21,049 nt of DNA. It comes from a virus. The stretch is from IMG/VR virus record IMGVR_UViG_3300007346_008098, positions 1 to 21,049 of that record; one strand, given 5' to 3'. Numbering within the stretch: position 1 is the stretch's first letter; each line of letters starts with the position of its first letter. The notes beneath the pieces are model-generated. The model had not been told where the DNA came from. It made no database searches and was given only the letters and a program-made list of their open reading frames with translations. The position numbers were made by a program, and so were the translations under genes. This document shows, one piece after another, positions 3,068-21,030 of this stretch.

Positions 3068-3076
3068 TATTTAAAC
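3068..3076 (-). promoter_or_regulatory. GTTTAAA-type putative phage promoter element before the tail tube gene (variant)
   Basis: On the minus strand this reads GTTTAAATA, 33 nt upstream of the ATG at 3034, in the 59-nt gap between portal and tail tube genes. It differs from the GTTTAAAG core in the last G, so it is the weakest upstream member of the set. Confidence 0.4.
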
Positions 3077-4988: not shown

Positions 4989-4997
4989 TCTTTAAAC
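4989..4997 (-). promoter_or_regulatory. GTTTAAAG putative phage promoter element before the portal gene
   Basis: GTTTAAAGA on the minus strand, 29 nt upstream of the portal ATG at 4959. It lies just beyond the stop of the 58-aa ORF, in the 42-nt gap. The same core precedes the first gene of every transcription block in the window. Confidence 0.55.
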
Positions 4998-5001
4998 TTA
5001 G

Positions 5002-5178
5002 TTACTGCATAGCATCATCCATTTTTGTAAGATCGACAAGTACAGTCTCTAAATCCATGAGTCGTTCTAGAAGTTCTTCTTTACATATCTTTCCTTCTTC
5101 CCATTCTTTGATGAGTTCGTCGGCTCCATCGACCATTACATTATACCCAGAGGTCAAGACATTAATTCCTTTTTCCAT
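5002..5178 (-). CDS. Small acidic hypothetical protein (58 aa)
   Basis: An ORF of 58 codons starting at the ATG at 5178, overlapping the end of the 321-aa gene by 25 nt, and stopping (TAA) just before the portal promoter motif. The product is acidic and mostly helical: the second half (ELIKEWEEGKICKEELLERL, then MDLETVLVDLTKMDDAMQ) has regular hydrophobic spacing that predicts two amphipathic helices. An alternative in-frame ATG at 5136 would give 44 aa. No SD stands out. It fills an otherwise empty gap between two genes on the same strand, and its composition looks coding. I do not recognise the family; a small structural accessory or chaperone is possible but unsupported. Confidence 0.6.
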   Translation of the reverse strand: MEKGINVLTSGYNVMVDGADELIKEWEEGKICKEELLERLMDLETVLVDLTKMDDAMQ

Positions 5179-6119
5179 GATTCTTGTTCTTTGCTGATAG
5201 ATTTGTAAAATTCTTTGTAAGTTTTACGCCATTTTTCGTCGTATTTCCTTACGTATTTGAAGTAGTTTTTTGACCAAGATTCTACGTCATATAAATCTTT
5301 ATACTCATTAGGAACATTTTTTGAAAAGATAGACAGCTCAATTGCAAGGATTGCGCTAATAAAGTCTCCTCGTTTTAGGATCATTTGCTTTTCTAGCGCA
5401 TCGATAGAGATATGTTTAAATTTTTCTCCTATCTCTTTAAAGAGAGGCGATTGCTTAATATCTAATCTCTTTTCTTCCTTTACTTTTTTAATTGTTTCTT
5501 GGTACGCGTTATCAAGTATATCCGCAATAAAGCTTGAGTTGAACTCAATATCTGTTTCGTTGTTAATCTCTCTCCAGAATTTTTTAAATGATTCATAACC
5601 TTTTACAATTGTGATATTTGAATAGGATTGAAGCTTTTGCCTAATGTCTCTTTTTGCTACATCAGAGTAGTGGATGTCTTTACTTTCTGGCCAGAAAGCA
5701 CTACGTTGAGCCAAAGAGTTTGCCCATAAAAACGTGGTTAGGAGCTTTTTAATTCTAGAATCAGCGAGATCTTTTTTTGGAATATCATCGATGTCCTCTA
5801 TTGCTCTTTTCCAGTCATAAAATACATCTAGGGCCTTATTTTCTGCAGCGCAGTACACCGGAGTTTTTGCAAGTTTGCCGATATGCTGTTCACCAAGTTC
5901 TCCGTACCCTGTGATGTCGTTAATAAGCACGTCGTCTTCCGACATACTCTGCGATGTAATTACCCTAGGTTTCTGGACATTTTTTATCTGCGCATTAAAC
6001 TCATGTAACCACCTCTCGTGGGAGATCTGCTGCTCTGTCTTCCAGCGATCGTGCGCAAGAATCTTATCAAGAAGCTCTTCTTTAAGATTACTTAATGCTA
6101 GAATCTCCAGAGTTTGCAT
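5154..6119 (-). CDS. Hypothetical protein, helical and charged (321 aa)
   Basis: I do not recognise this protein. From the ATG at 6119 it is 321 aa; a TTG at 6128 would add three residues, but ATG is preferred. It overlaps the upstream gene by 32 nt and the 58-aa ORF downstream by 25 nt. The product is hydrophilic, rich in Lys, Glu, Asp and Trp, and looks largely alpha-helical, with no signal peptide or transmembrane segment. Features include an N-terminal helical region with paired HDRW/HERW motifs (about 23-38), a central FLWANSLAQRSAFWPESKD segment, and a C-terminal third rich in YK/WK pairs (KNYFKYVRKYDEKWRKTYKE). It has no Walker A or nuclease motif, so it is not the terminase expected before a portal. 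It is probably co-transcribed with the SLOG-like gene. Confidence 0.75.
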   Translation of the reverse strand: MQTLEILALSNLKEELLDKILAHDRWKTEQQISHERWLHEFNAQIKNVQKPRVITSQSMSEDDVLINDITGYGELGEQHIGKLAKTPVYCAAENKALDVFYDWKRAIEDIDDIPKKDLADSRIKKLLTTFLWANSLAQRSAFWPESKDIHYSDVAKRDIRQKLQSYSNITIVKGYESFKKFWREINNETDIEFNSSFIADILDNAYQETIKKVKEEKRLDIKQSPLFKEIGEKFKHISIDALEKQMILKRGDFISAILAIELSIFSKNVPNEYKDLYDVESWSKNYFKYVRKYDEKWRKTYKEFYKSISKEQESWKKELMS

Positions 6120-6555
6120 CGGTTGCAAGTTTGCGTAATTTTACATCTATAAAGCTAATTATATCACGATAGTTCCAGCAGTTGTCAATCTTGTTAAATA
6201 ACTTATGATCGATTCGCCCGAGGTCCATGCCCGCTGTCATAAGCCGATTTACATCATCCCAGCAATTGCTTCCTGCCTCGTCGAATAAAAATATTCTCTT
6301 ATCATCTTCTATTTCTTGCTTTTCTAAAAATCCGAGCACATTGAAAAAGTGAGATAGCATCGGAAGATCCCAGCCAGCAAAGACTATAAAGTCCGAGGAC
6401 TTAATCGTAGCTTCTGTAATCGACTGTCTACTCTTAACCTCTATGTTTTCCTTTTCCGTTAAAATTTGCTCTAAATGAACAACCATTTTGTTTAAGTCAG
6501 ATACCGTATCTACGGATCTTGCCCTAATAATTGTTACAGAGATCTTACTTGACAT
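6088..6555 (-). CDS. Rossmann-like, possibly SLOG/LOG-family nucleotide-binding protein
   Basis: A 155-aa protein that looks like an alpha/beta Rossmann domain. After an N-terminal strand (KISVTIIRA) and a helix, IKSSDFIVFAGWDLPMLSHF (about 71-90) sits where LOG/SLOG proteins have the nucleotide-binding GG-x-GT loop. It is followed by the helix FNVLGFLEKQE, the strand KRIFLFDEAG, and W-D-D-V with a helix, matching the LOG order 'switchable enzyme list / partner strand / N-x-x-G / helix'. The canonical GGxGT is replaced by GWDLPM, so catalysis as in LOG phosphoribohydrolases is doubtful; ligand binding is possible. It is the first gene of the leftward block, with GTTTAAAG 20 nt before its ATG. 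Family assignment is by pattern only; a TIR-like or other Rossmann fold remains possible. Confidence 0.7.
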   Translation of the reverse strand: MSSKISVTIIRARSVDTVSDLNKMVVHLEQILTEKENIEVKSRQSITEATIKSSDFIVFAGWDLPMLSHFFNVLGFLEKQEIEDDKRIFLFDEAGSNCWDDVNRLMTAGMDLGRIDHKLFNKIDNCWNYRDIISFIDVKLRKLATDANSGDSSIK

Positions 6556-6575
6556 AGTTTAGTTTAAGCTACAAA

Positions 6576-6584
6576 GCTTTAAAC
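6576..6584 (-). promoter_or_regulatory. GTTTAAAG putative phage promoter element, leftward, in the divergent 6556-6617 region
   Basis: GTTTAAAGC on the minus strand, 20 nt upstream of the ATG at 6555. It is back to back with the rightward copy at 6590 in a 62-nt divergent intergenic region. Confidence 0.6.
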
Positions 6585-6589
6585 CTAAA

Positions 6590-6605
6590 GTTTAAAGTTT
6601 AAAAA
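6590..6605 (+). promoter_or_regulatory. GTTTAAAG putative phage promoter element, rightward, tandem copy
   Basis: Two overlapping copies: GTTTAAAGT at 6590-6598 and GTTTAAAAA at 6597-6605. They lie 19 and 12 nt upstream of the ATG at 6618. The first copy has the full core, so it is the better candidate. Confidence 0.6.
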
Positions 6606-6617
6606 AAGCTTCTTGAT

Positions 6618-9600
6618 ATGTTATCTGCACTAACACAAAGACAGTTGGAATCAGTTTTTGTCAATCTGCCCAGAATTATCGAGGATGCTTTTAAGTCTTA
6701 CGAGCTAAAAGAAGGCGCTTTTGAAGTCAGAGCAGAAAAAGAGCTATATAATGAACTGTATTTAGACTTAATAAATACTGTATTTGAAAGGATAGAAGGA
6801 GAACAACCTATAAGAATCCTTCCGTTTTACAATAAGCTCTTATTTATTACAATAAAATTAAATTTTAACACCGAGCGATTTTTAAGTTTATTAAAGTTAA
6901 TCGAAGTTGGAGTAATAGCCTATCTGGATAGAGAGGGCATTAAAAATACAAATATAGAGCAATCTTTTTTAAGATACATAGAGAGCATCTCTAATGCAAT
7001 AAAAACAAGAGATATATTTTTAAAAGGAACTAATGTTGACGAGTTAATACAAATAATCGATGAATACGCTCCGTCTACAGCAATTGTAGATCGGACAATT
7101 GCCGCTAGTAGACTGGATGGTAGAAGAATATATTCGTTATTCAGTAAAGATTTTTATTGGGAGTATCAGAAGAAGCAAAATCAAAAAAGCGAAGTTTTTT
7201 CTGGTATTAGAAAAACAGTCTATAATAATAAGCTATACCTCCTTAACCAAGGGATTGCAATACCAAGTTATGACTCATTTGACGATGAAGAGTGGGGAGA
7301 GTATACTTCAAAGTATTTAATAAAGTCAAAAACTTTTAACGAAAAGCTCAATAGCAACCTAAAAACATATATAAGTAATGCGCTAAAAACTTCAAAGGAC
7401 ATAAACTCAAGCATATCCGATTCTAAGGTAGAACAGTTAGAATCTAATATTACTTACGATCAGAAAGATTTAAAATCAAGCTTTGGAGGAGCTGGGGAAA
7501 ACGTAGTAGAAAATGTAATTTTACTCAAGACAATTTTAAAATATTTTGGAAATTCTCAAGCTTCTCCGGTGGGTAGCGTAGACTACATTACTTTGCTATG
7601 CGAATATTTATACGCGTTTTGCTTTGGAAGAAAAATAAACGGAGGATTTTCTGATGTAGGAGGAACGAGTCTTTTAGGAGATTTTAATACGTTATTTTCT
7701 TACGGCTCTAATGTAAACAAAATAGCAGGGTTAAAATTTTTAGAAGGATTCAAGTCTTTGAAATCTTTTAGTCAAAACCTAGATCTTCCTTTAGATATTG
7801 AAATCAAAGAAGAAAAAGAAAAATTAATCTACTCAGCGATATATAATCCAATTTATGCAAAGTATATCTCTGGGATAAAGGATAGGTATATTGCAGAAGA
7901 TCGAAATCCTTATATCAAAGAGGTCGGTGTAGATTTGATTTTATTTGGATTAGAGACTATACTTCAAACTGCTAATAGACTCGGAGATACAATCGAGGCA
8001 ATTAAAATTAGCTTAGATCAATCAGGAATACTGCCAGGATACGAAGGCTTAGGACCCATCTCTATTCAAATAGAAGAATTTAGCAAGGTATTTATTACTA
8101 CATCTGAGCTAGATACAAAGTACGCTAACTCTAAGATACTTCCAGGATTTAATGGGCTACTTAAGTATTTAGTTTCTTCTTATCAGAAATTATCGGACAC
8201 CGTTATCTATCCCTCATTTACTTCGGAATCTTTAGAAAATTTTAATGAGTGGGGAAGAGAAGTAGAAAATGCTCTAGGAAGACTGATATCAAATATCAAA
8301 AACTTAGGATATAGTCCAGGTAACTTCGTGCCTAACATCTCATTTAAATACTCGGCAAAAGATAGAGAGATAGTTATAGATCAGTTAAGATCTCTTAATT
8401 TTCAAGAGAATGAAATAAATAAGTTTTTGTCAGTAGAAAGTTTTGAGGAACTATTGTCAATATTTTCTCCTATAACAGATTCTTTAGATCAAGTTTCCTT
8501 CTTTAAAGGATACGAACTAACTCAGCTTATATACGAATTTGGTGGAGAAAGCGCCGTAGATAATTACCTATCTTATTTGTATTCTCAGGATGAAAATGGA
8601 TTACTGAGAGTATTGAATAATACGTTAAAGAACAAAAACAAGGTGTCTATTTATAATGAAAATAGATTTGGTAAGTTAGTGGGTTTATTGATTAATTTAA
8701 CTTTTGCAATAGATCCCGATCAATTAGCTTTATTTAAAGATTATCTTTCTGGAAGTAACTTGGATTTATTTAAATCAATCGAGTTTTTATTGCAAAACAG
8801 AAATGCAAATATTTTGTTAGATAAAGATAATATCGAAATTTTAGCTCCTTTAGTAGAATCTTTAATTTATGGAAGATCGATATTTGGATATAATTCTTAC
8901 TCTATTGGATATGGTGTTGCGGATAGAGAAGCTCCTCTTGCTTTACAACAATTAGAAGATTTAATAGACAAAGATTTAGGAAGAGCATCAATACCTCTCC
9001 TGCGTAATCTTTTTGATAAGTTTAACGGATTATCAGTTAAAGAGCTCATTAAGATAATCGGGCCGGGCTCTTTCAACACAGAATATGGTCAATTAGTAAA
9101 TGGATATGAAGGTGGTAAGCTAACAAAGCTTATTAACTACGCCTATTTTAGTGGATTATTGCACAGAATTAGTTATTATACAAACTCTTACCAAGTACCT
9201 AATTTTTACATCTCTCCTAACGTTTCAATTAGGCTCGATCAATTTTTAGTAATACTTGAGAGCATAAAAGATCTTTTAAATATTGTATTAACAAATCTTT
9301 CTGGCTCAATTGAGTTTCCGTTTGAAGACACAAACTCAAATCTTTATTCCTTTGAGAACATATTTAATACTCAAAATAAAAAGATAGAAGAAATTTCAAA
9401 AATTGTAAGAAATTTAGTACCTATTAATAGAGACATTTCAAACATAGCCTCTCCGAGCATTAATGGCGAAGCGATTATTGTAGGAGCACCTGGCACCGGA
9501 AACTCTCCGATACCAGAATCAATACCTATTGAAAACTCAATTACTCCAGAACAAGCTAGTCAATTATCCACTGTTATCTCTAGAGACTACTCATTTATCT

Positions 9601-10484
9601 CTGATAAAAAATTTAATAGCACATCAGAATCAGATATAATTAACAAGTTTGTTAAGTTTATTGAAAAAAGTAGGAAAATCTCAAAGTTAAATAGTGGTCA
9701 GTCTTTAATTAGCGAAAATATTATCACAGAAGAAAATTCTAATTTACTTAAAAACCCCGCCACGACGCAAGAAGACAAACCTTTGGTTTCCCTTGGAGAT
9801 GATAAAAATGTCGAAGGTATGCTTCCTGCATTTTATACATCGACACCTTTTTCAGAAGGCGTAGAAAAAGACCAAGAAGATCTTCTTATTTCTAAAAAAT
9901 TAATTTCAAAATTTGATCCATTAGAATCTTGTAAAAAGTTCGGAGGAGAAAATTGCGAAGATAGGGTGCAAACTAATATAAATACGTGCGGTGCAATAAC
10001 AAATTCTGCCATATACCCAGAAAAAGACACAGCGCCGGTTTCTACGGTGTTAAATGGAAGCGTTCCTATCGATAGACCTTTGGGCTCTTCTGATCCTCAA
10101 ACAAGACTATCTAATGTTTTCATTCCTAATGGAAAAAATAACAAACCAGGATATTTTGATCTTTTAGGAGATGGTATAAAAATAACTACTAACTCAGAGC
10201 CGGTACGATTGAACATAGACGCGGAGCCTTATGTATTTAAAAAAGAATCTTCTTTGGACAAAGAGGGTTTATTATCTCAGTACTATAGCTCAGAGTTCGG
10301 ATTAATTGAGGCGATTAAAGCTGGGTGGGAAAAAGACGATCCATTTAACTGTTCATTACTCGAGGACCCATATGCGTACCAAGCATGCATGAACTTATTA
10401 AAATGTAAAAAATTTAAAAGAGAAAAAGGAATGTCCGTATTAAAATTCTGTCCTAAGACTCTTGCAGGAGGGTTATTGAAGTGA
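6618..10484 (+). CDS. Very large hypothetical virion protein (1288 aa)
   Basis: The largest gene in the window; I do not recognise the family. Residues 1 to about 900 are mostly alpha-helical with many Leu/Ile/Tyr and recurring LIY, YLSYLYS and LLKYLVSSY segments, without clear transmembrane helices or a signal peptide. Two paired stretches look alike: SGILPGYEGLGPISIQIEEF (about 469-488) and SKILPGFNGLLKYLVSS (about 506-522). From about residue 980 the chain becomes Ser/Asn/Pro-rich and probably flexible. Cysteines are scarce before residue 1100 (a pair near 328-334) but cluster at the C-terminus, around 1105-1125 and 1245-1280, including NCSLLEDPYAYQACMNLLKC. Codon use is very AT-rich (TTA, ATA, AAA), unlike the sheath gene. 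It heads the rightward tail-fibre block and ends in a GTGA overlap with the next gene. A baseplate, whisker or long tail structural role is inference from position and size. Confidence 0.85.
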   Translation: MLSALTQRQLESVFVNLPRIIEDAFKSYELKEGAFEVRAEKELYNELYLDLINTVFERIEGEQPIRILPFYNKLLFITIKLNFNTERFLSLLKLIEVGVIAYLDREGIKNTNIEQSFLRYIESISNAIKTRDIFLKGTNVDELIQIIDEYAPSTAIVDRTIAASRLDGRRIYSLFSKDFYWEYQKKQNQKSEVFSGIRKTVYNNKLYLLNQGIAIPSYDSFDDEEWGEYTSKYLIKSKTFNEKLNSNLKTYISNALKTSKDINSSISDSKVEQLESNITYDQKDLKSSFGGAGENVVENVILLKTILKYFGNSQASPVGSVDYITLLCEYLYAFCFGRKINGGFSDVGGTSLLGDFNTLFSYGSNVNKIAGLKFLEGFKSLKSFSQNLDLPLDIEIKEEKEKLIYSAIYNPIYAKYISGIKDRYIAEDRNPYIKEVGVDLILFGLETILQTANRLGDTIEAIKISLDQSGILPGYEGLGPISIQIEEFSKVFITTSELDTKYANSKILPGFNGLLKYLVSSYQKLSDTVIYPSFTSESLENFNEWGREVENALGRLISNIKNLGYSPGNFVPNISFKYSAKDREIVIDQLRSLNFQENEINKFLSVESFEELLSIFSPITDSLDQVSFFKGYELTQLIYEFGGESAVDNYLSYLYSQDENGLLRVLNNTLKNKNKVSIYNENRFGKLVGLLINLTFAIDPDQLALFKDYLSGSNLDLFKSIEFLLQNRNANILLDKDNIEILAPLVESLIYGRSIFGYNSYSIGYGVADREAPLALQQLEDLIDKDLGRASIPLLRNLFDKFNGLSVKELIKIIGPGSFNTEYGQLVNGYEGGKLTKLINYAYFSGLLHRISYYTNSYQVPNFYISPNVSIRLDQFLVILESIKDLLNIVLTNLSGSIEFPFEDTNSNLYSFENIFNTQNKKIEEISKIVRNLVPINRDISNIASPSINGEAIIVGAPGTGNSPIPESIPIENSITPEQASQLSTVISRDYSFISDKKFNSTSESDIINKFVKFIEKSRKISKLNSGQSLISENIITEENSNLLKNPATTQEDKPLVSLGDDKNVEGMLPAFYTSTPFSEGVEKDQEDLLISKKLISKFDPLESCKKFGGENCEDRVQTNINTCGAITNSAIYPEKDTAPVSTVLNGSVPIDRPLGSSDPQTRLSNVFIPNGKNNKPGYFDLLGDGIKITTNSEPVRLNIDAEPYVFKKESSLDKEGLLSQYYSSEFGLIEAIKAGWEKDDPFNCSLLEDPYAYQACMNLLKCKKFKREKGMSVLKFCPKTLAGGLLK
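10466..10472 (+). promoter_or_regulatory. Strong ribosome binding site for a GTG start
   Basis: AGGAGGG, 8 nt before the GTG at 10481. It decides that start: GTG overlaps the stop of the 1288-aa gene as GTGA, so translation is probably coupled. Confidence 0.75.
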
Positions 10485-11302
10485 AAATATCCACGAACTT
10501 TTTAATAGAAGAAGAAGGACTTGTATTTCTTCCTTTTGATAAAAAACAGACCAGGTCTTTTAATTATGTGAGATTTGAAGATCAAGAATTAGTTTCAAAT
10601 GACATAGCTAAATTACAAAAACAAAAAACTAACTCTGCACGAATTTCTATTGATACGCAAGATATCTCTATAAAAGAGTTAAAACTAACTAACCAAAATA
10701 TATTAACTTGGGATGATTTATGGATTGATAACTTCGATGGAAGTAGTATTGATCCTATGATCGAATCAATTAACCTTCAAAGAAATTCTTTACTTTACGT
10801 AAACTTTAATTTAAAAAGAGATAAGTTAAGATTTTTAAACTTAGAAGGTAACGCAAATCTGAAAACTTTTATAGGAACAGAGTTGAATGCTTTAGAAGTC
10901 TTAGATTTAAGTAATTGCATAAACCTAGAGTCTGTAAATCTAGGGTTGTCTAAGAATATTAGGATGTTAAGTTTAAAGAATTGTAGGTTAACTGAAGCTG
11001 GGCTAGAACAGGTACTATCCTCTTTTATCCCTACAAAAACTGCTTCTGCAAACATTAGACCAGGATCTTTACCTCCCTTTAGAAAGCTCTATGAAACTCT
11101 TCTAGATCTTAGGGGTAATGACATAAATTGGGGGAATAGAAGAATAGCTTCTAAAATAAGATTATTAGTTACAAACAATTGGTTGGTTTTATGGGATAAC
11201 CCTCCGCCCACAAGCGTAATTCCTATTCAAATGTACGCATTTTTCCCTAAGAATATAAAGGACACAGAAATTTCTCGGTATTATGGCAGACCTTCGCTCT
11301 AG
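10481..11302 (+). CDS. Leucine-rich-repeat protein in the tail-fibre operon
   Basis: A 273-aa protein beginning with GTG behind a near-perfect SD. Residues about 90-182 contain leucine-rich repeats of exactly 22 residues: units beginning IESINLQRN, LRFLNLEGN, LEVLDLSNC and IRMLSLKNC, each with the LxxLxLxxN/C signature. A further LLDLRGNDI strand near 208-216 may cap the solenoid. The N-terminal 85 residues are of mixed type without a signal peptide. The C-terminal part has Trp/Pro (NNWLVLWDNPPP) and probably forms a separate contact domain. LRR domains mediate protein-protein binding, so a role in receptor recognition, fibre assembly or host interference is possible; being between a giant tail protein and a fibre favours a virion or assembly part. 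The next gene overlaps its end by 20 nt. The LRR assignment is confident; the role is not. Confidence 0.85.
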   Translation: MKISTNFLIEEEGLVFLPFDKKQTRSFNYVRFEDQELVSNDIAKLQKQKTNSARISIDTQDISIKELKLTNQNILTWDDLWIDNFDGSSIDPMIESINLQRNSLLYVNFNLKRDKLRFLNLEGNANLKTFIGTELNALEVLDLSNCINLESVNLGLSKNIRMLSLKNCRLTEAGLEQVLSSFIPTKTASANIRPGSLPPFRKLYETLLDLRGNDINWGNRRIASKIRLLVTNNWLVLWDNPPPTSVIPIQMYAFFPKNIKDTEISRYYGRPSL

Positions 11303-12362: not shown

Positions 12363-12363
12363 A

Positions 12364-13206: not shown

Positions 13207-13545
13207 AAACACTTCCTCAAGGATAGATTTTTTTAGCCGAATTGAGTAAATCGGCCCGACTTTTTTAAACACTACCATCATAATATATTCTCTTTCGTCT
13301 TTCTTAGTGGGTAAAAGTTGCTCTCTAATGGAAATATAAGCATCTCTGCCCCCGAGCATAAGCTCAATTTGCTTGGTATCAAATATCCAAGAGATGTCAT
13401 CTTGGCTTTTTGTGGCTACATATAATCCTATCGGGGCGTTATTTAATACGGCGCTCCTAAACCCAGGAATGAGCGTTTTTTCTTTAGAATAAATTCCTTC
13501 AAATATAGTCCTAATTTTATCTTGTTCTTCTGGATTTTCAAACAT
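13198..13545 (-). CDS. Hypothetical protein downstream of dCMP deaminase (115 aa)
   Basis: Unknown family. I prefer the ATG at 13545, which shares one base with the dCMP deaminase stop (TGATG) and has GGAG 8 nt upstream; a GTG at 13548 would add one residue. The product looks like a small alpha/beta domain: an N-terminal acidic helix (MFENPEEQDKIRTIFEGIYS), alternating strands and a charged C-terminus (SIRLKKSILEEVFLD). No cysteine, signal peptide or membrane segment is seen. Its stop overlaps by 9 nt the stop region of the plus-strand 280-aa gene, so the two converging genes share their ends. Coupling to the deaminase suggests co-expression, not necessarily nucleotide metabolism. Confidence 0.75.
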   Translation of the reverse strand: MFENPEEQDKIRTIFEGIYSKEKTLIPGFRSAVLNNAPIGLYVATKSQDDISWIFDTKQIELMLGGRDAYISIREQLLPTKKDEREYIMMVVFKKVGPIYSIRLKKSILEEVFLD

Positions 13546-13952
13546 CACATTCGCTCCACTTCTACGCCAAGTTTACGAAGTACGTCGATTCCTTCGTTAA
13601 TTCTATACTCGTTTCTGTAATAAACTTTTTTAATACCGCTCTGAGCAATCATCTTTGAACAATCAGGACAAGGACTATGAGTGCAAAACAGCTCTGACTT
13701 GTCAATGGACTCGGAAGATTTTGCCATCTTTACCAAAGCATTTTGTTCTGCATGGAGAACAAAGGGATTGGTAGTTCCGTCTTCTAGCTCACAGCAATTG
13801 GTATGAAAACCCGACGGAGTTCCGTTCCACCCATGCGCCAATATGCTCCCGTTTTTAACTACAATTGCGCCTACCTTGAGCTTTTTACAATTAGAAACCT
13901 GGGCAAATAGTTCTGCAGTTTTCATGTACGCTTCTTTTATCTCAGGTTTCAT
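13545..13952 (-). CDS. dCMP deaminase (ComEB-type zinc-dependent deaminase)
   Basis: Deaminates dCMP to dUMP, the substrate of thymidylate synthase, in the cytoplasm of the infected cell. The 135-aa protein has the complete zinc-dependent cytidine/deoxycytidylate deaminase motif: HAE at about residues 67-69 (with Glu as proton shuttle) and PCPDC about 25 residues later supplying the two zinc-binding Cys. Upstream, KVGAIVVKNG and HGWNGTPSG match the dCMP deaminase substrate region. Length is somewhat shorter than T4 Cd (193 aa) and near bacterial ComEB. I cannot confirm the dCTP/dTTP allosteric site. The start is the ATG at 13952 with AGAGG 7-8 nt upstream. A TATAAT-like box lies 23 nt upstream. 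The stop overlaps the next gene's start. It lies inside a structural region, away from any replication gene visible here. Confidence 0.92.
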   Translation of the reverse strand: MKPEIKEAYMKTAELFAQVSNCKKLKVGAIVVKNGSILAHGWNGTPSGFHTNCCELEDGTTNPFVLHAEQNALVKMAKSSESIDKSELFCTHSPCPDCSKMIAQSGIKKVYYRNEYRINEGIDVLRKLGVEVERM

Positions 13953-13975
13953 AAACTGCCTCTAGTGTTGTATAT

Positions 13976-13981
13976 ATTATA
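13976..13981 (-). promoter_or_regulatory. Possible -10 box (TATAAT) before dCMP deaminase
   Basis: TATAAT on the minus strand, 23 nt before the deaminase ATG, in a very AT-rich 32-nt gap. There is no matching TTGACA 16-18 nt further upstream and no GTTTAAAG motif here. The deaminase may have its own, possibly earlier, promoter or may be read through from 14679. Confidence 0.25.
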
Positions 13982-13984
13982 TCA

Positions 13985-14284
13985 CTATATGGGCTTGTGG
14001 TTTATTTTTTTGATGCCTTGTTCATCTTTTAAAAACTTTTTATAAGCCTCAAAATGTCTGACGTCTTCTTCGCCTAAAAATACTTTGCCAGTTTTGGGTG
14101 GTCTAACTCTTTTCTTTTTAAGAGCCGGAGGTTCGTAAGTTAGTTCTTCTTGAGCCGTAGCATCATTAAAAAAATTTTCTAGTTCATCTTGAGTAGGAAC
14201 AGAAGACATTATTACTTCTGTATTATGTTGCTCTTGGGACGAACTAGAGTTAGTTAGTTTTGTTGTTTTTCTTCTAGTTGTCAT
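13985..14284 (-). CDS. Hypothetical small basic/disordered protein (99 aa)
   Basis: Unknown family. It overlaps the 132-aa gene upstream by four bases (ATGA) and has AGAAG just before the ATG at 14284, so it is probably translated by coupling. The N-terminus is polar and low-complexity (TKLTNSSSSQEQHN), the middle is acidic (DELENFFNDATAQEEL), followed by a basic, proline-containing stretch (KKKRVRPPKTGK) and a short charged helix (RHFEAYKKFLKDEQ). This looks like an intrinsically disordered protein with an acidic peptide next to a nucleic-acid-like basic patch. It might be a minor head or tail accessory or a DNA-binding regulator; I cannot decide. Confidence 0.7.
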   Translation of the reverse strand: MTTRRKTTKLTNSSSSQEQHNTEVIMSSVPTQDELENFFNDATAQEELTYEPPALKKKRVRPPKTGKVFLGEEDVRHFEAYKKFLKDEQGIKKINHKPI

Positions 14285-14679
14285 ACTCTTCTTCTTTTAC
14301 ATGTGCTGCACCCGGCCCAACCCTGTACTCTAGACGGGCCAACGTACTGAGTTCCTGGAGCGTCGGTTAAAGGACCGGACTCATATAGCCCTGGAGCAAG
14401 ACTCGAGCTCTTTCTCGTGGCTTTTTCTGTCCAGTTTTGCCATCCCCACATATCTTCGGAACCATAGACATGGGGACTTTGTTGAGAGTTGTTTGCCATA
14501 TTTGCTCTAGTCGCGTAACTAGGTCCTGGATTTACCCTATTAGAACTCCGTAGGTATCTATCTTGAGATAACGCTTGGCGCACATAAGAGGTGTTTTGCG
14601 TAGTTCTGTCTCTATAGTCAGAGTTGCTACGCGATCCTTCCCAGGATTCATAAGGAGAACTTGATGAATTTATAGCCAT
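14281..14679 (-). CDS. Hypothetical Ser/Asn/Gly-rich small protein with C-terminal CxxC (132 aa)
   Basis: Unknown family; first gene of the leftward four-gene cluster, with GTTTAAAG 17 nt before its ATG and AGGAAAAAG as a possible SD. The 132 residues are low-complexity and polar (Ser, Asn, Arg, Tyr, Gly), with short SSNRVNPGPSYATRANMANN and SPHVYGSEDMWGWQNW segments, and they end in CSTCKRRRV. The single CxxC followed by four basic or aliphatic residues could bind metal in an oligomer or be a structural cap. Such Ser/Asn/Tyr-rich small proteins occur as minor virion parts, but nothing here proves that. Codon use fits the surrounding genes. Confidence 0.7.
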   Translation of the reverse strand: MAINSSSSPYESWEGSRSNSDYRDRTTQNTSYVRQALSQDRYLRSSNRVNPGPSYATRANMANNSQQSPHVYGSEDMWGWQNWTEKATRKSSSLAPGLYESGPLTDAPGTQYVGPSRVQGWAGCSTCKRRRV

Positions 14680-14696
14680 GTTCTTTTTCCTAATGA

Positions 14697-14705
14697 TCTT
14701 TAAAC
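14697..14705 (-). promoter_or_regulatory. GTTTAAAG putative phage promoter element, leftward, in the divergent 14680-14755 region
   Basis: GTTTAAAGA on the minus strand, 17 nt upstream of the ATG at 14679. It is back to back with a rightward copy at 14723, repeating the arrangement at 6576/6590. Confidence 0.6.
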
Positions 14706-14722
14706 ATAAAATTAAAATTAGG

Positions 14723-14731
14723 GTTTAAAGA
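14723..14731 (+). promoter_or_regulatory. GTTTAAAG putative phage promoter element, rightward
   Basis: GTTTAAAGA on the plus strand, 24 nt upstream of the ATG at 14756. It would drive the chaperone-like, sheath and scaffold block. Confidence 0.6.
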
Positions 14732-14755
14732 AAATTACATATATAAGCCATAACT

Positions 14756-15100
14756 ATGCCCTCGAGTAAAATGTCAAGACCTGGCGCAGAAGCAGGAGAA
14801 CAACTTGATATCTCTAATGATTTTGATTTTGGAGATCCAGAGGTAGTCCCTGTAGAAGTATCTGAAGGTAAATATATTTATTTAAAAGAGCCTTGTGCAG
14901 AGGATCTGATCCACATTTCCGATATAAATGACGATGAAAAACTAAGCGAAATTGAGGCCACATTGCAAACAATTTGCGTTCTTCATATGCCAATAAATGG
15001 CGGAAAGAAACTAACGATGAAAGACGCAAAAAAACTCACTGCAAGACAGCTCAAAAAAATTGGAGAGGCGATGGGGGCTCTATTAGGATCAAATGAGTGA
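14756..15100 (+). CDS. Probable tail assembly chaperone (114 aa)
   Basis: Residues about 33-110 resemble small tail-assembly-chaperone-like proteins: a short beta start (VPVEVSEGKYIYLKEPCAED), then helices (LIHISDINDDEKLSEIEATL) ending in KKLTARQLKKIGEAMGALLG. The N-terminus is polar. These proteins bind the tape measure protein during tail assembly. The gene starts the rightward block, 24 nt after GTTTAAAG, with no clear SD. Its end overlaps the next start by 8 nt (ATGAGTGA). An in-frame A-AAA-AAA heptamer at 15028-15034 would allow -1 slippage but leads only to a ~20-codon tail. Family assignment is by pattern only, and no tape measure gene is seen in the window. Confidence 0.6.
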   Translation: MPSSKMSRPGAEAGEQLDISNDFDFGDPEVVPVEVSEGKYIYLKEPCAEDLIHISDINDDEKLSEIEATLQTICVLHMPINGGKKLTMKDAKKLTARQLKKIGEAMGALLGSNE

Positions 15101-15512
15101 TGAGTACGAAATAGAAAGAGAGCATAATTACACCGTATCTATAGAAGATAAAAACAAAAAAAGATTAGTATTTAGGGACATAACAGGACAAGATTTAGAG
15201 TTTTTAGAAAGGTTTATTAACAAAGAAAAAGAATTAAACTTAGAAGATGTTATAAAAATTTTGGAATTATTAAATGTTTCAAGTACTTCTATAAGAAAGA
15301 TTACACCTAGAGTAATCAAAGAAATATTTGAAATTGTAGCAAAAGAAATACTATGTAATTTTATGACAAAACTTCAGTGGTTAGAAGTTTGTTATGCTTT
15401 ACAAAATAATTCTTTTGTTGCTTTATCTTTTTTTGAATCTCAACCAATGACAAAAGTTATGGCAATGATTCAGGTTCATAAGAAAGCAGTCGATGGAATC
15501 AAAAGCTCTTAG
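15093..15512 (+). CDS. Chaperone-like small tail protein, second of a tandem pair (139 aa)
   Basis: Starts inside the end of the preceding gene (overlap ATGAGTGA) with AGGA 4 nt upstream, so the two are probably translationally coupled. Its first half repeats the plan of the 114-aa protein: a beta-type opening (KRLVFRDITGQDLEFLERFI) and a helix-rich continuation (LEDVIKILELLN, then ITPRVIKEIFEIVAKEIL). Both proteins place 'strand, then Dl/L helix' at similar spacing, so they may be diverged paralogues. The second half (MTKLQWLEVCYALQNNSFVA) is an added helical domain. A frameshift fusion of the two is unlikely, because a TAG at 15084-15086 closes this frame upstream. Function is inferred from pattern and position. 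Confidence 0.6.
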   Translation: MSDEYEIEREHNYTVSIEDKNKKRLVFRDITGQDLEFLERFINKEKELNLEDVIKILELLNVSSTSIRKITPRVIKEIFEIVAKEILCNFMTKLQWLEVCYALQNNSFVALSFFESQPMTKVMAMIQVHKKAVDGIKSS

Positions 15513-15518
15513 AAATAA

Positions 15519-15761
15519 ATGACCGACGAATTACGCTTAAAACTTATTTTAATCTTATGCTCAGTAACAGTTGATAAAAACCAATCTAGGTTAAGGGAAC
15601 TTGTGCAAGTTTGCTCTTACTATGTGACTGATAATGATTTTAATAAGATTATGCGTAAGTCTTTAAAAATCTTAGAAACACAAAAATGCGGTATTGAAAG
15701 CTGCACGGATTGGCTAATGAATAATCTTTTTGAGTTGTACAAGAACAATTTGGAAGATTAA
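15519..15761 (+). CDS. Hypothetical small helical protein (80 aa)
   Basis: Starts 6 nt after the preceding stop; no clear SD. The 80 residues read as alpha-helical with regular Leu/Ile spacing (LRLKLILILCSVTVDKNQSR) and four cysteines, including KCGIESC. Isolated cysteines in a cytoplasmic phage protein are unremarkable, but the KCGIESC pair is noticeable. It belongs to the same short operon as the chaperone-like pair and precedes the sheath promoter motif. No family recognised. Confidence 0.65.
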   Translation: MTDELRLKLILILCSVTVDKNQSRLRELVQVCSYYVTDNDFNKIMRKSLKILETQKCGIESCTDWLMNNLFELYKNNLED

Positions 15762-15780
15762 AGGTTATAAATGACCGTTT

Positions 15781-15789
15781 GTTTAAAGA
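15781..15789 (+). promoter_or_regulatory. GTTTAAAG putative phage promoter element before the tail sheath gene
   Basis: GTTTAAAGA, 38 nt upstream of the sheath ATG at 15828, within a 66-nt gap. It is followed by ATC as in the copies at 4989 and 14697 (both GTTTAAAGAT). A separate promoter would suit the high demand for sheath protein. Confidence 0.6.
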
Positions 15790-15827
15790 TCGATTGAAAG
15801 GCCTCTTACTTTGTAAAGAATTATTTT

Positions 15828-18800
15828 ATGGCTAATCCTGTAAACATCAATGTTGGCGCCATCCAGCGCCCTGGAGTGTTTGTTACTCAGTCATCGACTG
15901 GTGGATTACCTCAACCCCTAGCCTCTCACGCTATTGGTTACATTTTTGGTTCTACTCCGGTAGATCCATACGATGCAAATCCCGTCGAAGAGTATTCATC
16001 TCTCCCTCCTTACCAACCCACCCAGGTTGGTTCGCTAGAGGACTTTGTTCAGAAAGCAGGTGGTGTACCAACTGCTGCTAACAGTCCTCAGTCCATTATT
16101 TCTTACGATTCAGTAAGAGCATTTTTTGATAATGTCGGTGTAAATGGAATTCTATACTACACCCGCGTAACCCCTACTCCTGAGACAAAAATTGTCGTGA
16201 GCAAAGGAGCAGGTTGGAATCTATTTTCTTTGAAGCTTGGTGGAAGATACTTTGGAGATAAGTCTCTGGGTATCAATGATGCCGAAGGCGTAGAAATTAG
16301 AGTTATCTCAACTACTTCTTTAGATGCAAATGATAACGCATTTGATATCGTAGGATATTTGAGAGAAGAAGATCCTGATTTTAGCACATTCTATAGAATC
16401 GAGCAAGACGACGAAGAATCAAAGAACGCTACTTTTAGAATTTATTCTAAAGATACCCGCGTAATTCCCGTTGTTGATACCTTCAAGGCTTATCAGATTT
16501 CTGATACTGCATACGCAACTCCAGAAAACGCAGGAGCGGTCAATCAGTACGTTCCGATTAAAGAGCTTAATTTCCGTTGCGTTGCAAGAGACGTACTAAC
16601 ACAAGAAACACCTCTATTTGTTTCTGGTGCTGCTATTGGAAACTTTTTAGAAGCAACTTCGGTTACTGCGAATACAAATGGCACGAACTCTTTTGAAAGT
16701 GCTAGTGGAAAAATCAGAGTAGCTGATATCACTTCTCTATCTATTGGGACCGATGCTCTTGCTCCTGGAGACAAGGTTGTTTTAGAAGGTATTGACTTAG
16801 GTCAGGCATATAACGGAGCCGGTGAACTTCCCGCTGGTGGCGTTTTTTATAGCACAGTCTATGAAGTACTGAGCGTAGATGCCCCAGATGATTCCTTTAT
16901 TCTTGATAACGGCTCTGGTTCACCTCTTCTCTTCACTTCTAACGATTTAACTTCTGTAGTAAGAGTTCGTAGATTGGCTTATGATCCTTCAGAAGCTACT
17001 GAAGTATACCAAGCTATCGAAGATTTTCTAATTGACCAGGAAATCTATGCTACTGCAGCTGACATCCCCGATGACAAAATTGTTGCGGTATCGAGCGATG
17101 AAAGAGTAGGAAAAGATGATCATATCCGCTGGAGTGACTCATTCGCTGCTTATTATCAGTGGGATGCTGGAACTACTGCATTTACACCAGGTGCAGATGG
17201 CACGGGTCTTAGCGTAATTCCACAAGGTACAATTACCTCGGTTGGTGGTAATGTAACAAGAACCGGATATGTTCCTGATAGTGTTCAAGTTTTCTACGTA
17301 AACGTAGCAGGCGAAAACAGAGTAATCATCGCCAATGGCGCTACTCCTGCGGAACTAACCGATAGCATCACTACTTCGCTCAAAGAAATTCTTCAAGAAA
17401 AAGAACTCGATGGGTTCTACATCGTTGAGTCGGTAGAAGTTGACTATGAAACTGCGCTCGGAGCGGGTAATTATGCCCCGAATAACGGCGAAGCAATCGG
17501 AACAACCTTAGCTGTAGCAGGTGCTCCTGCCCTCCGTCCTTCGGCCGATGGTAGAGAACTCACAGGCTCACTTAGCGTAACTTCTGGAAATACCACAGTC
17601 CTAGGCACAAGATCTGCTCAAACAGGGACCATTGAACTCCAAGCAAATGGATCATTACTGGGTACAAACACAAACTTCCTTAGCGTAATTGCTCCTGGTT
17701 ACAGAATCCTTATCGGATCTGATACCTACGAAGTAGTTAGTGTTGCTTCAAACTCCCAGGCAATTGTTCGTAATCCTGGAGGCGCAACTGTTGCTTCTGG
17801 TGCTTCATATAGCATCGTAAGTTCTAGATTTACTGAGGAGCTATATGGCGGTGCTTCTATTGTTATCAATGGATATCGCTTTACAGTTAATTCCGTAACC
17901 AATGACGGAGAAATTGTAGTTGCTGAACAGCCCGCATTTACCTCAAGTTCAACACAAGGATTCTTAGATAGCTCTTCTGCTAATGGATTCTATCGCCACG
18001 ATTATATTCTTAAGGTAAAAATTACCTCTAAAAATGGTACTTCTTCGCCTATCGTACCTGGCTTAAATCGCTATGGTAAAAAAGACGAGAATATTATCAG
18101 AGCCAACTCAATCGACGAAGCCGCAGACTTTGCAAACTATAAGCTTTCTGCAAAAGCAAGATCACAAGACTTTACCTATGCCATCGAGCAAGGTATGGGA
18201 TCCGGTGATTTCCGTCCTGGATTCTTAATGGCTCCAGAGGCTTTTGCTGGAATTAAGTCAGAAGTGGGCGGATTAAGCAAAACCCAAGCACGTGAAGAAA
18301 GAGTAAAAGTTACTCAGTCTCTCTTAAAAGCTGCTGAGGGTAAGCTAGGAGGAACAGAAGGAATCTCTGGAACTCAACATATTGCCTTGGTTGATTGCGG
18401 ATCTGATGAACTAAGCCTAAGCGAAGTTCAAGACGAGCTGTCATATATTAAGCGTACTGCTGGCGCGCCATTTGGCCATGCTGCTTTCTACGCTCCTTAT
18501 ATCAAGAATGCCGCCGATAGGTTTATTCCTCCAAGCGCATTCATCGCCGGCATTGCATGCTCACGCTATGTAAACGAAGGCTTCCAGCAAGCCCCTGCCG
18601 GAGCAAGATATCCACTAAGAGGCGCAAACGGACTCTTATTTGATATTACTGCCCAACAACAAGAAGTAACATATCCTCTAGGCCTCAATCCTATCAGAAG
18701 CCTTCCTAACAGAGGAATTGTAGCCTGGGGTGCTCGCACAACGAGCTCTAATGCTCTCTTTAAGTTTGTCAATACTCGCGCTATTCTTAACGTCCTACTC

Positions 18801-19166
18801 GACGTTCTTGCAAGAAGCTTCGATGACATTCTCTTTGAGCAAATTGACTCGGCGGGTACACTTTACGCAAGAGCTAAGTCTATCGCCTCTCAGGTAATGG
18901 GCCAACTCTATCGTCAGGGTGCACTATTTGGTGCAAGACCAGAACAGGCATATTTAGTTGTTTGTTCTGATGCTAATAATTCTGTATCAGATCTAGAAAA
19001 CGGAACTCTCAGACTCGATGCTTATGTGGCTACATCACCCACACTTGAGCGCCTTGTTGTTACCGTTGTAAGAACACCGGCTGGTCAAGTTGCCCAGGTA
19101 TCCGACTCGTTCTCTAGAAACGTTGACAGATTTGATTATCTTCTTAATTCCGCCACCATCCAGTAA
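15828..19166 (+). CDS. Contractile tail sheath protein, expanded (1112 aa)
   Basis: Forms the contracting outer tail tube. The N-terminus (GAIQRPGVFVTQSSTGGLPQ) is typical of sheath proteins. The C-terminal ~390 residues are the conserved sheath core: SYIKRTAGAPFGHAAFYAPY with IPPSAFIAGI, NRGIVAWGARTT (about 964-975), FKFVNTRAILNVLLDVLARS (about 983-1002), RAKSIASQVMGQLYRQGALF, and the final domain. At 1112 aa it is far longer than T4 gp18 (659) or Mu sheath (about 495). The extra sequence is in the middle: residues about 260-710 hold beta-rich modules, among them GSLLGTNTNFLSVIAPGYRI with EVVSVASNSQAIV (about 608-650), a repeat style common in surface-exposed phage domains. Codon use is richer in C-ending codons than in neighbouring genes, as expected for a highly expressed gene. 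The stop is 7 nt before the next gene. Confidence 0.93.
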   Translation: MANPVNINVGAIQRPGVFVTQSSTGGLPQPLASHAIGYIFGSTPVDPYDANPVEEYSSLPPYQPTQVGSLEDFVQKAGGVPTAANSPQSIISYDSVRAFFDNVGVNGILYYTRVTPTPETKIVVSKGAGWNLFSLKLGGRYFGDKSLGINDAEGVEIRVISTTSLDANDNAFDIVGYLREEDPDFSTFYRIEQDDEESKNATFRIYSKDTRVIPVVDTFKAYQISDTAYATPENAGAVNQYVPIKELNFRCVARDVLTQETPLFVSGAAIGNFLEATSVTANTNGTNSFESASGKIRVADITSLSIGTDALAPGDKVVLEGIDLGQAYNGAGELPAGGVFYSTVYEVLSVDAPDDSFILDNGSGSPLLFTSNDLTSVVRVRRLAYDPSEATEVYQAIEDFLIDQEIYATAADIPDDKIVAVSSDERVGKDDHIRWSDSFAAYYQWDAGTTAFTPGADGTGLSVIPQGTITSVGGNVTRTGYVPDSVQVFYVNVAGENRVIIANGATPAELTDSITTSLKEILQEKELDGFYIVESVEVDYETALGAGNYAPNNGEAIGTTLAVAGAPALRPSADGRELTGSLSVTSGNTTVLGTRSAQTGTIELQANGSLLGTNTNFLSVIAPGYRILIGSDTYEVVSVASNSQAIVRNPGGATVASGASYSIVSSRFTEELYGGASIVINGYRFTVNSVTNDGEIVVAEQPAFTSSSTQGFLDSSSANGFYRHDYILKVKITSKNGTSSPIVPGLNRYGKKDENIIRANSIDEAADFANYKLSAKARSQDFTYAIEQGMGSGDFRPGFLMAPEAFAGIKSEVGGLSKTQAREERVKVTQSLLKAAEGKLGGTEGISGTQHIALVDCGSDELSLSEVQDELSYIKRTAGAPFGHAAFYAPYIKNAADRFIPPSAFIAGIACSRYVNEGFQQAPAGARYPLRGANGLLFDITAQQQEVTYPLGLNPIRSLPNRGIVAWGARTTSSNALFKFVNTRAILNVLLDVLARSFDDILFEQIDSAGTLYARAKSIASQVMGQLYRQGALFGARPEQAYLVVCSDANNSVSDLENGTLRLDAYVATSPTLERLVVTVVRTPAGQVAQVSDSFSRNVDRFDYLLNSATIQ

Positions 19167-19173
19167 TTGAAAA

Positions 19174-21030
19174 ATGCCCGATAATCAAGAAAATATATTA
19201 AACGCTAAAGAACCTCTATCATCTCAACAACCTAAAAAGATTGTACACATCGAGATGTTCAGAGCTGGACCTCAGATTAGCTCTTCGGGGCAAAAGATGA
19301 TGTTCACAGAGGAGGATCTTGATCAGGTTGTAGGGACATATGCTCCCGATCAACATGAGGCTCCCTTGATCATCGGGCACGATCAAACTGATTCGACCCC
19401 GGCCCTTGGCTGGGTAAAAAATCTTTGGAGAAAGGGCTCACAACTTTGGGGTAAGGTTGAACTTACCCCTAAAGCCGAGAAACTAATCAAAGATGGAGTT
19501 TTTAAAAAAGTAAGTAGTTCTTTTTACTTACCAGACGCAGAGACAAATCCCCACCCAGGAAAATTGGCTTTGCGCCATCTAGGACTAGTTTCAATTCCCG
19601 CCGTAAAAGGCTTAGCAGCTTTTTCCGAGGGTGGATTTGACGACGAAAAGATTATCAATTTAGCCCCGCAAGAAGGGGAAACCATTATCTCGTTTAAAGA
19701 AGCCTTAGAAACAAAAAACTCTACTATGACTAGAAAAAAGAAAACAACTGACGTTGCTCAGGAGGTCTCGGTAGATCATGCCGAGGGCGGAATGACCGTC
19801 AACATTAACATCGGAGGAGGCGGTAAGCCTTCTGTATACGACGACTCTGGTAATCAAGTTGATGAGACAGGCGCTCCAGCTGATTATAAGATGGAGTATG
19901 CCATGGACGAAGAAACCGAAGAAGACATGCCCGCAGATACCGATTCTGAAATGCCTGAGGAGGGCATGGAAGGAGAAGGAGATGACATGGGCCTAGAGGA
20001 CGAAGGTGGCGAAGAAGAAGCTCCAGAAGCCTCTGGTGAAGATGACATGGAAAGTGAGGAAGAGATGGGTTCAGAAGGAGAAGAAGCTCCTGCTGAAGAC
20101 GACGGATCGGAAGATATCTCTGGCGAAATGGAAAACAATGATAAAAAAATTGCGTCTCTAGCAGCCGAGTATGAAGAAGACGAGCTTTTCCAAGCTTTAG
20201 CCCTTAAAAAGCAAGCAAGTTCAATGATGGAAAAAGATATGTCTTACGGAGAAATGCCCGAAGGACTTAAAAAGCACATGGAAGAAAAAGAAGGAAAGGG
20301 AGAGGATGAAGAGGAGGATAAAAAGAAAGAAGCTGATATGGGAGAAGAGCAAGTAAGCGATAACGCCGAAGAAGCTCCTGAAGAAGAGAAGGAAGAAGCC
20401 AAGGCTGACATGGCCGAGGACAAAACTGAAGAGGACGAGGACGAAGAGAAAAAGAAAACTGATATGTCAGAAAAGGTTAAAGAAGAGAAGACTGAAGAGT
20501 CAGCATCTCATTCTGAAGAAGCTGCGCCTCTGGCTACAGAAACTCTGGATCATAGCGAATCCGCTATGGGAGATCAGAGCATTAATGCCCTTAATGCTCG
20601 GGTAGCCGAATTAGAGGAAGAGCTCAACAGACAAAGAAAGCTTGCTCGCGAGAAAGAAATCTCCTCGTTTGCTGAAGGTCTTTATGAGGCCGGAAAGCTT
20701 ACTGAACAGATCGTTCCTAAGTCCGATTTAGTTCGTTTCATGGAAACTCTTAATAATAAGAACTCCGTGAATTTCTCCGAGACCGGTAAGGCCTCTCAAT
20801 TCGACTTCTTCCGCGGAGTCCTTGAGTCACTTCCCTCTATGGTCTCTTTTGAAGAGTTTGCTACTCCTGCATCTGCTCCTAAAAAAGCAAAGACAGTTGA
20901 GCCTAACGCTTCTGGATACGCTTATGATCCAAACACAGCAGATATCCATGCCGAGGCACTTTCATACGCCGAGGAAAATGACTGCGATTATTTAACAGCT
21001 GTTAAGCTTGTTATTGAAAATAAAAACTGA
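19174..21030 (+). CDS. Prohead protease-scaffold fusion, Mu gpI-like
   Basis: Residues 1 to about 165 are a Mu gpI-type protease: FTEEDLDQVV, YAPDQHEAPLIIGHDQTD (with the conserved H-E-A-P-L-I-I-G-H pattern), ALGWVKNLW, FKKVSSSFYL and HLGLVSIPAVKGL. The His and the Ser in VSSSF are the likely catalytic residues. From about residue 185 comes the scaffold: a very acidic, Met-rich linker (about 230-460), a coiled coil (INALNARVAELEEELNRQRK, about 470-490), then conserved helical parts (FFRGVLESLPSMVSFEEF) and a C-terminal helix. In Mu, gpZ is made from an internal start in I; here an in-frame ATG (codon 185, position 19726) sits exactly at the domain border, with GTTTAAAGA 25 nt upstream. No good SD is seen at either start. 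Its neighbour downstream is probably the major capsid protein. Confidence 0.88.
   Translation: MPDNQENILNAKEPLSSQQPKKIVHIEMFRAGPQISSSGQKMMFTEEDLDQVVGTYAPDQHEAPLIIGHDQTDSTPALGWVKNLWRKGSQLWGKVELTPKAEKLIKDGVFKKVSSSFYLPDAETNPHPGKLALRHLGLVSIPAVKGLAAFSEGGFDDEKIINLAPQEGETIISFKEALETKNSTMTRKKKTTDVAQEVSVDHAEGGMTVNINIGGGGKPSVYDDSGNQVDETGAPADYKMEYAMDEETEEDMPADTDSEMPEEGMEGEGDDMGLEDEGGEEEAPEASGEDDMESEEEMGSEGEEAPAEDDGSEDISGEMENNDKKIASLAAEYEEDELFQALALKKQASSMMEKDMSYGEMPEGLKKHMEEKEGKGEDEEEDKKKEADMGEEQVSDNAEEAPEEEKEEAKADMAEDKTEEDEDEEKKKTDMSEKVKEEKTEESASHSEEAAPLATETLDHSESAMGDQSINALNARVAELEEELNRQRKLAREKEISSFAEGLYEAGKLTEQIVPKSDLVRFMETLNNKNSVNFSETGKASQFDFFRGVLESLPSMVSFEEFATPASAPKKAKTVEPNASGYAYDPNTADIHAEALSYAEENDCDYLTAVKLVIENKN
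19692..19700 (+). promoter_or_regulatory. Internal GTTTAAAG copy before an in-frame scaffold start
   Basis: GTTTAAAGA inside the protease-scaffold gene, 25 nt before the ATG at 19726. The sequence also encodes SFKEA in the protein, so a chance match cannot be excluded; a further in-gene match at 10971 has no start codon close behind it. Confidence 0.35.
19726..21030 (+). CDS. Possible independent scaffold protein from internal in-frame start (Mu gpZ-like)
   Basis: An in-frame ATG at codon 185 of the protease-scaffold gene opens a 434-aa product beginning MTRKKKTTDVAQ, which contains the acidic linker, coiled coil and scaffold C-terminus but no protease. Mu, lambda and many other phages make a separate scaffold this way. 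The domain border fits, and a GTTTAAAGA motif lies upstream, but a good SD is missing (only a weak TTAGAAA). Production of this product is inference. Confidence 0.45.
   Translation: MTRKKKTTDVAQEVSVDHAEGGMTVNINIGGGGKPSVYDDSGNQVDETGAPADYKMEYAMDEETEEDMPADTDSEMPEEGMEGEGDDMGLEDEGGEEEAPEASGEDDMESEEEMGSEGEEAPAEDDGSEDISGEMENNDKKIASLAAEYEEDELFQALALKKQASSMMEKDMSYGEMPEGLKKHMEEKEGKGEDEEEDKKKEADMGEEQVSDNAEEAPEEEKEEAKADMAEDKTEEDEDEEKKKTDMSEKVKEEKTEESASHSEEAAPLATETLDHSESAMGDQSINALNARVAELEEELNRQRKLAREKEISSFAEGLYEAGKLTEQIVPKSDLVRFMETLNNKNSVNFSETGKASQFDFFRGVLESLPSMVSFEEFATPASAPKKAKTVEPNASGYAYDPNTADIHAEALSYAEENDCDYLTAVKLVIENKN

Follow-up and report, generated by a model that had tools for sequence, protein, structure and literature searches.

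A strict 8-bp box as predicted late promoter of TIM5-like cyanomyoviruses, with a phage SigF-family sigma as its likely reader

A repeated box ahead of genes in a TIM5-like fragment

The window, i.e. the whole stretch of DNA analysed here (21,049 bases), is a virus fragment representing a piece of a TIM5-like cyanomyovirus. The portal is 85% identical to its counterparts in Cyanophage S-TIM5 and three relatives (genus Aurunvirus); from sheath to portal, the genes follow the same order as in S-TIM5 and S-TIM54, on the opposite strand. Next to the tail tube gene lies an 857-aa gene with a Subtilase-family (S8) domain (3-2573, minus strand), which has no upstream GTTTAAAG.

The exact octamer GTTTAAAG occurs eight times in the window. 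Dinucleotide shuffles predict 1.76 copies, in line with the original prediction's rough estimate of one or two, and eight copies were reached in none of 100 shuffles. Six of the eight end 18-39 nt ahead of start codons (Table 1); in the range 8-60 nt before ORF starts these six compare with 0.15 expected (p ~1e-8), and the octamer is the top 8-mer of the window. The proposed recurrence of a motif upstream of genes is therefore real, as are the back-to-back copies in both divergent gaps. Its plus-strand coordinates had been given correctly, while those on the minus strand were off by one (the correct values are 4990, 6577, 14698 and, for the variant, 3069). Copies with one mismatch show no excess in the window (42 vs 36.6 expected), and the signal is therefore strict.

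The box ahead of the portal gene is kept before portal orthologues of S-TIM5, S-TIM54 and four environmental contigs (G001-G004). The one-base variant GTTTAAAT is likewise found ahead of the tube-like orthologues of S-TIM5 (60584) and S-TIM54 (61259). The S-TIM5 orthologue of gene 14281-14679 is annotated as a virion protein.

Table 1. Boxes and associated features in the window
Feature	Position	Strand	Remarks
Variant of predicted promoter box, GTTTAAAT	3069..3076	-	34 nt before tail-tube-like gene 2606-3034
Predicted promoter box GTTTAAAG	4990..4997	-	30 nt before portal gene 3094-4959
Predicted promoter box GTTTAAAG, left half of back-to-back pair	6577..6584	-	21 nt before gene 6088-6555; orthologous-site comparison
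Predicted promoter box GTTTAAAG, right half of pair	6590..6597	+	20 nt before 1288-aa virion gene 6618-10484; orthologous-site comparison
In-gene GTTTAAAG copy, probably coding	10971..10978	+	no ATG in promoter range
Host-type extended -10 TGATATAAT	13976..13984	-	before dCMP deaminase gene 13545-13952, which has no GTTTAAAG
Predicted promoter box GTTTAAAG	14698..14705	-	18 nt before gene 14281-14679; orthologous-site comparison
Predicted promoter box GTTTAAAG	14723..14730	+	25 nt before gene 14756-15100; orthologous-site comparison
Predicted promoter box GTTTAAAG	15781..15788	+	39 nt before tail sheath gene 15828-19166
Conserved sheath leader block TGAAAGGCCTCTTACTTTGTAAAGA	15793..15818	+	few bases after box
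Nested promoter-like box GTTTAAAG in protease ORF	19692..19699	+	26 nt before in-frame ATG 19726
Predicted nested product, 434 aa, 29% D+E	19726..21030	+	C-terminal part of 618-aa protease ORF

Distribution and conservation in related phages

Since the fragment is TIM5-like, the motif could be tested in whole genomes. The comparison covered the complete genomes of S-TIM5 and S-TIM54 as well as five contigs from the environment, 80-159 kb long, of which one (G003) has 56% GC; all these sequences are mutually related, and counts of relatives do not represent independent events. GTTTAAAG is the top upstream 8-mer in all eight TIM5-like sequences, G003 included, with p values from 1e-8 (window) to 5e-26. 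The genome-wide comparison with coding DNA suggested in the original prediction came out in its favour: 25 of 36 copies in S-TIM5 (1.0 expected, p 2e-26), where the octamer is the most enriched 8-mer, and 27 of 38 in S-TIM54 (about 1 expected, p 3e-29) are located just upstream of annotated starts.

Among genes leading a transcription unit in S-TIM5, the box precedes 16 of 25 virion genes and 8 of 84 others (p 1e-7); the corresponding numbers in S-TIM54 are 16/24 and 10/82. The remaining nine leading virion genes of S-TIM5 are without an exact box.

Analysis of 99 non-redundant promoters revealed no -35 element, no second box and no other element above 0.31 bits. An AT excess begins immediately downstream of the box, and nothing is conspicuous in the GC-rich genome (56% GC) beyond the box and the four bases after it. 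Further downstream, a weak A/purine excess is seen at the predicted transcription start. Strict, short and held within a fixed range upstream of putative late genes on the sense strand, the box has the features of a phage sigma-dependent single-box (T4-late-like) promoter, as do the missing -35 and the AT-rich DNA that follows.

T4 served as a control. In 42 kb of its structural genes the same script ranked TATAAATA first (11 of 17 copies upstream), at 14-28 nt from the start (median 26.5; 27-28 in TIM5-like sequences), which agrees with the proposal that the motif has the position of a T4 late promoter but a different sequence. GTTTAAAG has no copy in 267 kb of Synechococcus/Cyanobium DNA, a weak test since this DNA is GC-rich; 1.18 Mb of other cyanobacteria contains four upstream copies vs 0.96 expected.

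When orthologous sites were compared (32 groups), 127 of 175 were found to read GTTTAARG and 12 more to deviate by one mismatch, mostly at position 2. The sheath promoter, in the form of GTTTAAAG or GTTTAAGG, is present before nearly every sheath orthologue for which upstream sequence exists, from 100 down to 42% identity; the box is absent in one relative with 49% sheath identity (L073). The leader block that follows is near-invariant across relatives (L018-L091), reading TGAAAGGCCTCTTACTTTGYAAAGA in close ones and GTGAAAGATATAGTGTCTTC in distant ones. It is perhaps a 5'-UTR hairpin, another 5'-UTR element or a regulatory site.

The two further exact copies noticed inside genes fared differently. 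At the site corresponding to 19692, all relatives examined contain GTTTAAAG (GGTTAAAG in L088) followed by an ATG, and the box occupies the same aligned column in 34 of 34 sequences compared. Among the 87 amino-acid-conserved columns of these 34 sequences, no codons other than those of the box, TTT AAA GAA, reach 95% invariance; elsewhere in these genes TTT and AAA are chosen in only about half of the cases. By these features the copy is a conserved nested promoter-like site, probably responsible for a separate acidic protein of 434 aa. This product is probably scaffold-like by analogy, as some phages nest the scaffold within the protease gene. With a promoter nested in it, the protease gene is predicted to hold a scaffold-like protein under a control of its own. 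The copy at 10971, on the other hand, is missing in distant relatives, where the amino acids differ, and its role as an internal promoter is unsupported by this distribution and by the region that follows. In 20 close relatives its codons AGT TTA AAG are invariant while neighbouring codons vary; no start codon follows.

The phage sigma and the sister phage S-CBWM1

Each of six TIM5-like genomes possesses one gene for a protein with sigma region 2, and such proteins were also found at 56 environmental loci. The nearest model is PRK07408, cyanobacterial SigF (regions 2 and 3, aa 26-172), with a score of 43 bits, far below the cut-off of 261 bits, so that the TIM5 sigma is a divergent relative and not an equivalog. 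It matches phrog_351, not phrog_234 (the gp55 PHROG), and BLAST finds no similarity to T4 gp55. Clamp domain PF02916 was detected in the T4 control and in none of four TIM5-like genomes. The suggestion of a divergent phage sigma therefore holds in that a candidate is present, but its sequence puts it in the SigF family and does not resemble gp55, and no T4 clamp gp45 was detected.

A Pfam search of the TIM5 sigma returned no region 4 match. Its structure model, of low confidence overall (pLDDT 60, pTM 0.30), contains four helices at 166-223 (pLDDT 75-91), and Foldseek aligns it with full-length sigmas with poor global fit. On the basis of this model, a domain 4 may be present in the phage sigma.

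The sigma gene is part of a two-gene unit. TGNTAYAAT is located upstream of this unit in 35 of 35 distinct upstream regions, GTTTAARG in none; in S-TIM54 the upstream sequence is TGGTACAAT. The next independent upstream motif of S-TIM5, TGATATAAT, is a host-type extended -10 that precedes genes such as gyrase, NrdA and ThyX and is enriched in S-TIM54 too. Because the sigma unit has a host-type -10 and never GTTTAAAG, a two-step cascade is implied. A second window copy of TGATATAAT (6158-6166, minus strand) lies inside gene 6088-6555, upstream of ORF 5154-6128, and is present in S-TIM5 as well. A thioredoxin-like gene overlaps the start of the sigma gene (L011:11106-11420(-), S-TIM5), a neighbourhood that raises the possibility of redox control of the sigma.

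A different box is found in the sister phage S-CBWM1 (NC_048106.1; portal identity 36%), whose whole genome contains no GTTTAAAG. Its top upstream 8-mer is GGGTAAAA (also extended by T), with 18 of 34 copies upstream (p 1.5e-17) and the box 20-43 nt from starts. Aligned on TAAA, the S-CBWM1 box GGGTAAAAT is in the same register as GTTTAAAG, and in both phages A is weakly over-represented at one and the same position downstream, close to where transcription is expected to begin. GGTAA forms part of the S-CBWM1 box; TIM5-like phages have GTTTAA, without GGTAA at -12. Since the S-CBWM1 box keeps the SigF element GGTAA (-12), GTTTAAAG is placed at the -12/-10 position.

S-CBWM1 gp045 is homologous to the TIM5 sigma (27% over residues 18-134, E 8e-8), the homology being confined to regions 2-3, and also belongs to the SigF family. 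S-CBWM1 encodes a second sigma as well, and the pairing of gp045 with the box is not certain there. Comparison of both lineages points to a joint change of sigma and box. With sigmas that are homologous and boxes that differ, the two cyanophage lineages constitute a natural experiment on change of sigma specificity. No promoter motif is described for S-TIM5 or S-CBWM1 in the papers searched (the original S-TIM5 genome paper was not among them).

Interpretation and comparison with known systems

GTTTAAAG is almost certainly an on-switch before virion genes of TIM5-like viruses, and its reader is, from sequence evidence, most likely a virus-encoded sigma of SigF-family descent. The interpretation of the motif as a phage-specific late promoter is supported. 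We hold it to be highly probable that the box is the late (virion) gene promoter of TIM5-like cyanomyoviruses, a single element in -10 position read by the phage SigF-family sigma once the host polymerase has synthesised this sigma. Host RNA polymerase with the host principal sigma would transcribe the thioredoxin-like/SigF unit from its TGNTATAAT promoter, and the phage sigma would then direct polymerase to GTTTAAAG, opening the virion genes. From the alignment with the sister phage, the likely register is G-15 T-14 T-13, then T-12 A-11 A-10 A-9 G-8 W-7, followed by an AT-rich melting region; transcription would begin at a purine some 7-9 nt past the box. The enrichment, strictness, position and conservation of the box, its co-occurrence with the sigma, the host-type promoter of the sigma unit and the different box of the sister phage with its homologous sigma are observed; sigma-box binding, start site and late timing are inferred.

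The box might instead be a -35-type element with a separate -10 some 12-17 nt downstream. GTTTAA equals the textbook -35 of Bacillus sigma-B, and TAATGT/TATTAT-like hexamers are visible by eye 11-14 nt downstream in some promoters. Yet the start codon follows the box within 24 nt in 35% of the non-redundant promoters, so that transcription would start at the gene or within it; a second box emerges neither from the 99 promoters nor from the GC-rich genome, and the same-register box of S-CBWM1 matches the -12 element of SigF. By its spacing and the missing second box, this reading was rejected as very improbable. Slightly less so, though still unlikely, is a true phage promoter whose reader would be, in place of the phage SigF, the host polymerase equipped with a host sigma and helped by a different phage activator. 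The link between sigma and box is drawn from sequence comparison, and other phages do combine activators with the host sigma, as at T4 middle promoters; this is countered by the presence of one phage sigma in every genome examined, by the separate control of the sigma unit, by the concomitant difference of box and sigma in S-CBWM1 and by the lack of a second conserved activator-site motif beside the box.

Least probable is a non-promoter element (translation signal, replication/packaging site or methylation/restriction site). Shine-Dalgarno sequences are often missing at genes that have the box (8% vs 17-21%), though the statistics are weak (p 0.03 and 0.10 in the two genomes). Against such an element, the box leads transcription units, has sense orientation in both divergent gaps, is enriched ahead of virion genes, and shares its distance and flanking AT-richness with T4 late promoters.

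If the late promoter reading is extended to the origin of the system, a host-type SigF would have been captured by cyanophages and turned into a single-chain, clamp-independent late sigma that reads only the -12 box, the box shifting with the sigma from host GGTAA to GGGTAAAAT in S-CBWM1 and GTTTAAAG in TIM5-like phages; we give this scenario even chances. Nature would then offer an example of a late sigma in a single chain, the lack of which in T4-type phages has been described as puzzling. Phage late promoters served by a sigma of the phage are of a known kind; what is new, so far as the checks reach, is the sequence, the derivation of the sigma from SigF and the change of the box in step with it. 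The TIM5-like lineage is widespread in the sea, and the box flags late units directly in metagenomic fragments.

T4-like cyanophages resemble TIM5-like ones in being marine cyanomyoviruses with a late sigma in the phage genome (S-PM2 gp55). They differ in sigma family by annotation, and a different box is expected from the literature; GTTTAAAG occurs only three times in 49 kb of S-PM2. Among host systems, the Nostoc SigJ J-box (GGGaAtacT) is an extended -10 with a weak or dispensable -35, read by a group 3 sigma (PMC6495340). It shares these properties and resembles GGGTAAAAT of S-CBWM1, but controls a host developmental regulon and has another sequence.

Cyanobacterial SigF (type 3) promoters consist of TAGGC (-32) and a required GGTAA (-12) (PMC2758279). 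The likeness concerns sigma family and the S-CBWM1 box, which contains GGTAA and aligns with the TIM5 box; in contrast, the TIM5-like box has TT for GG before TAA, is a strict 8-mer and has no conserved -32 element.

T4 late promoters TATAAATA are read by gp55 with gp33 and gp45; the box is located one turn before the start, with AT-rich DNA after it and no -35 (PMC2988020). TIM5-like promoters differ in the box, in the sigma, whose sequence is not that of a gp55 and which may have a domain 4 of its own, and in that no T4-type clamp domain was detected. They agree in the 8-bp box at -10, AT-rich downstream DNA, lack of a -35, use of both strands, association with virion genes and start-codon distance. 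The T4 review asks why a fused late sigma is missing from T4-type phages (PMC2988020); if the phage sigma has its own domain 4, this question becomes testable.
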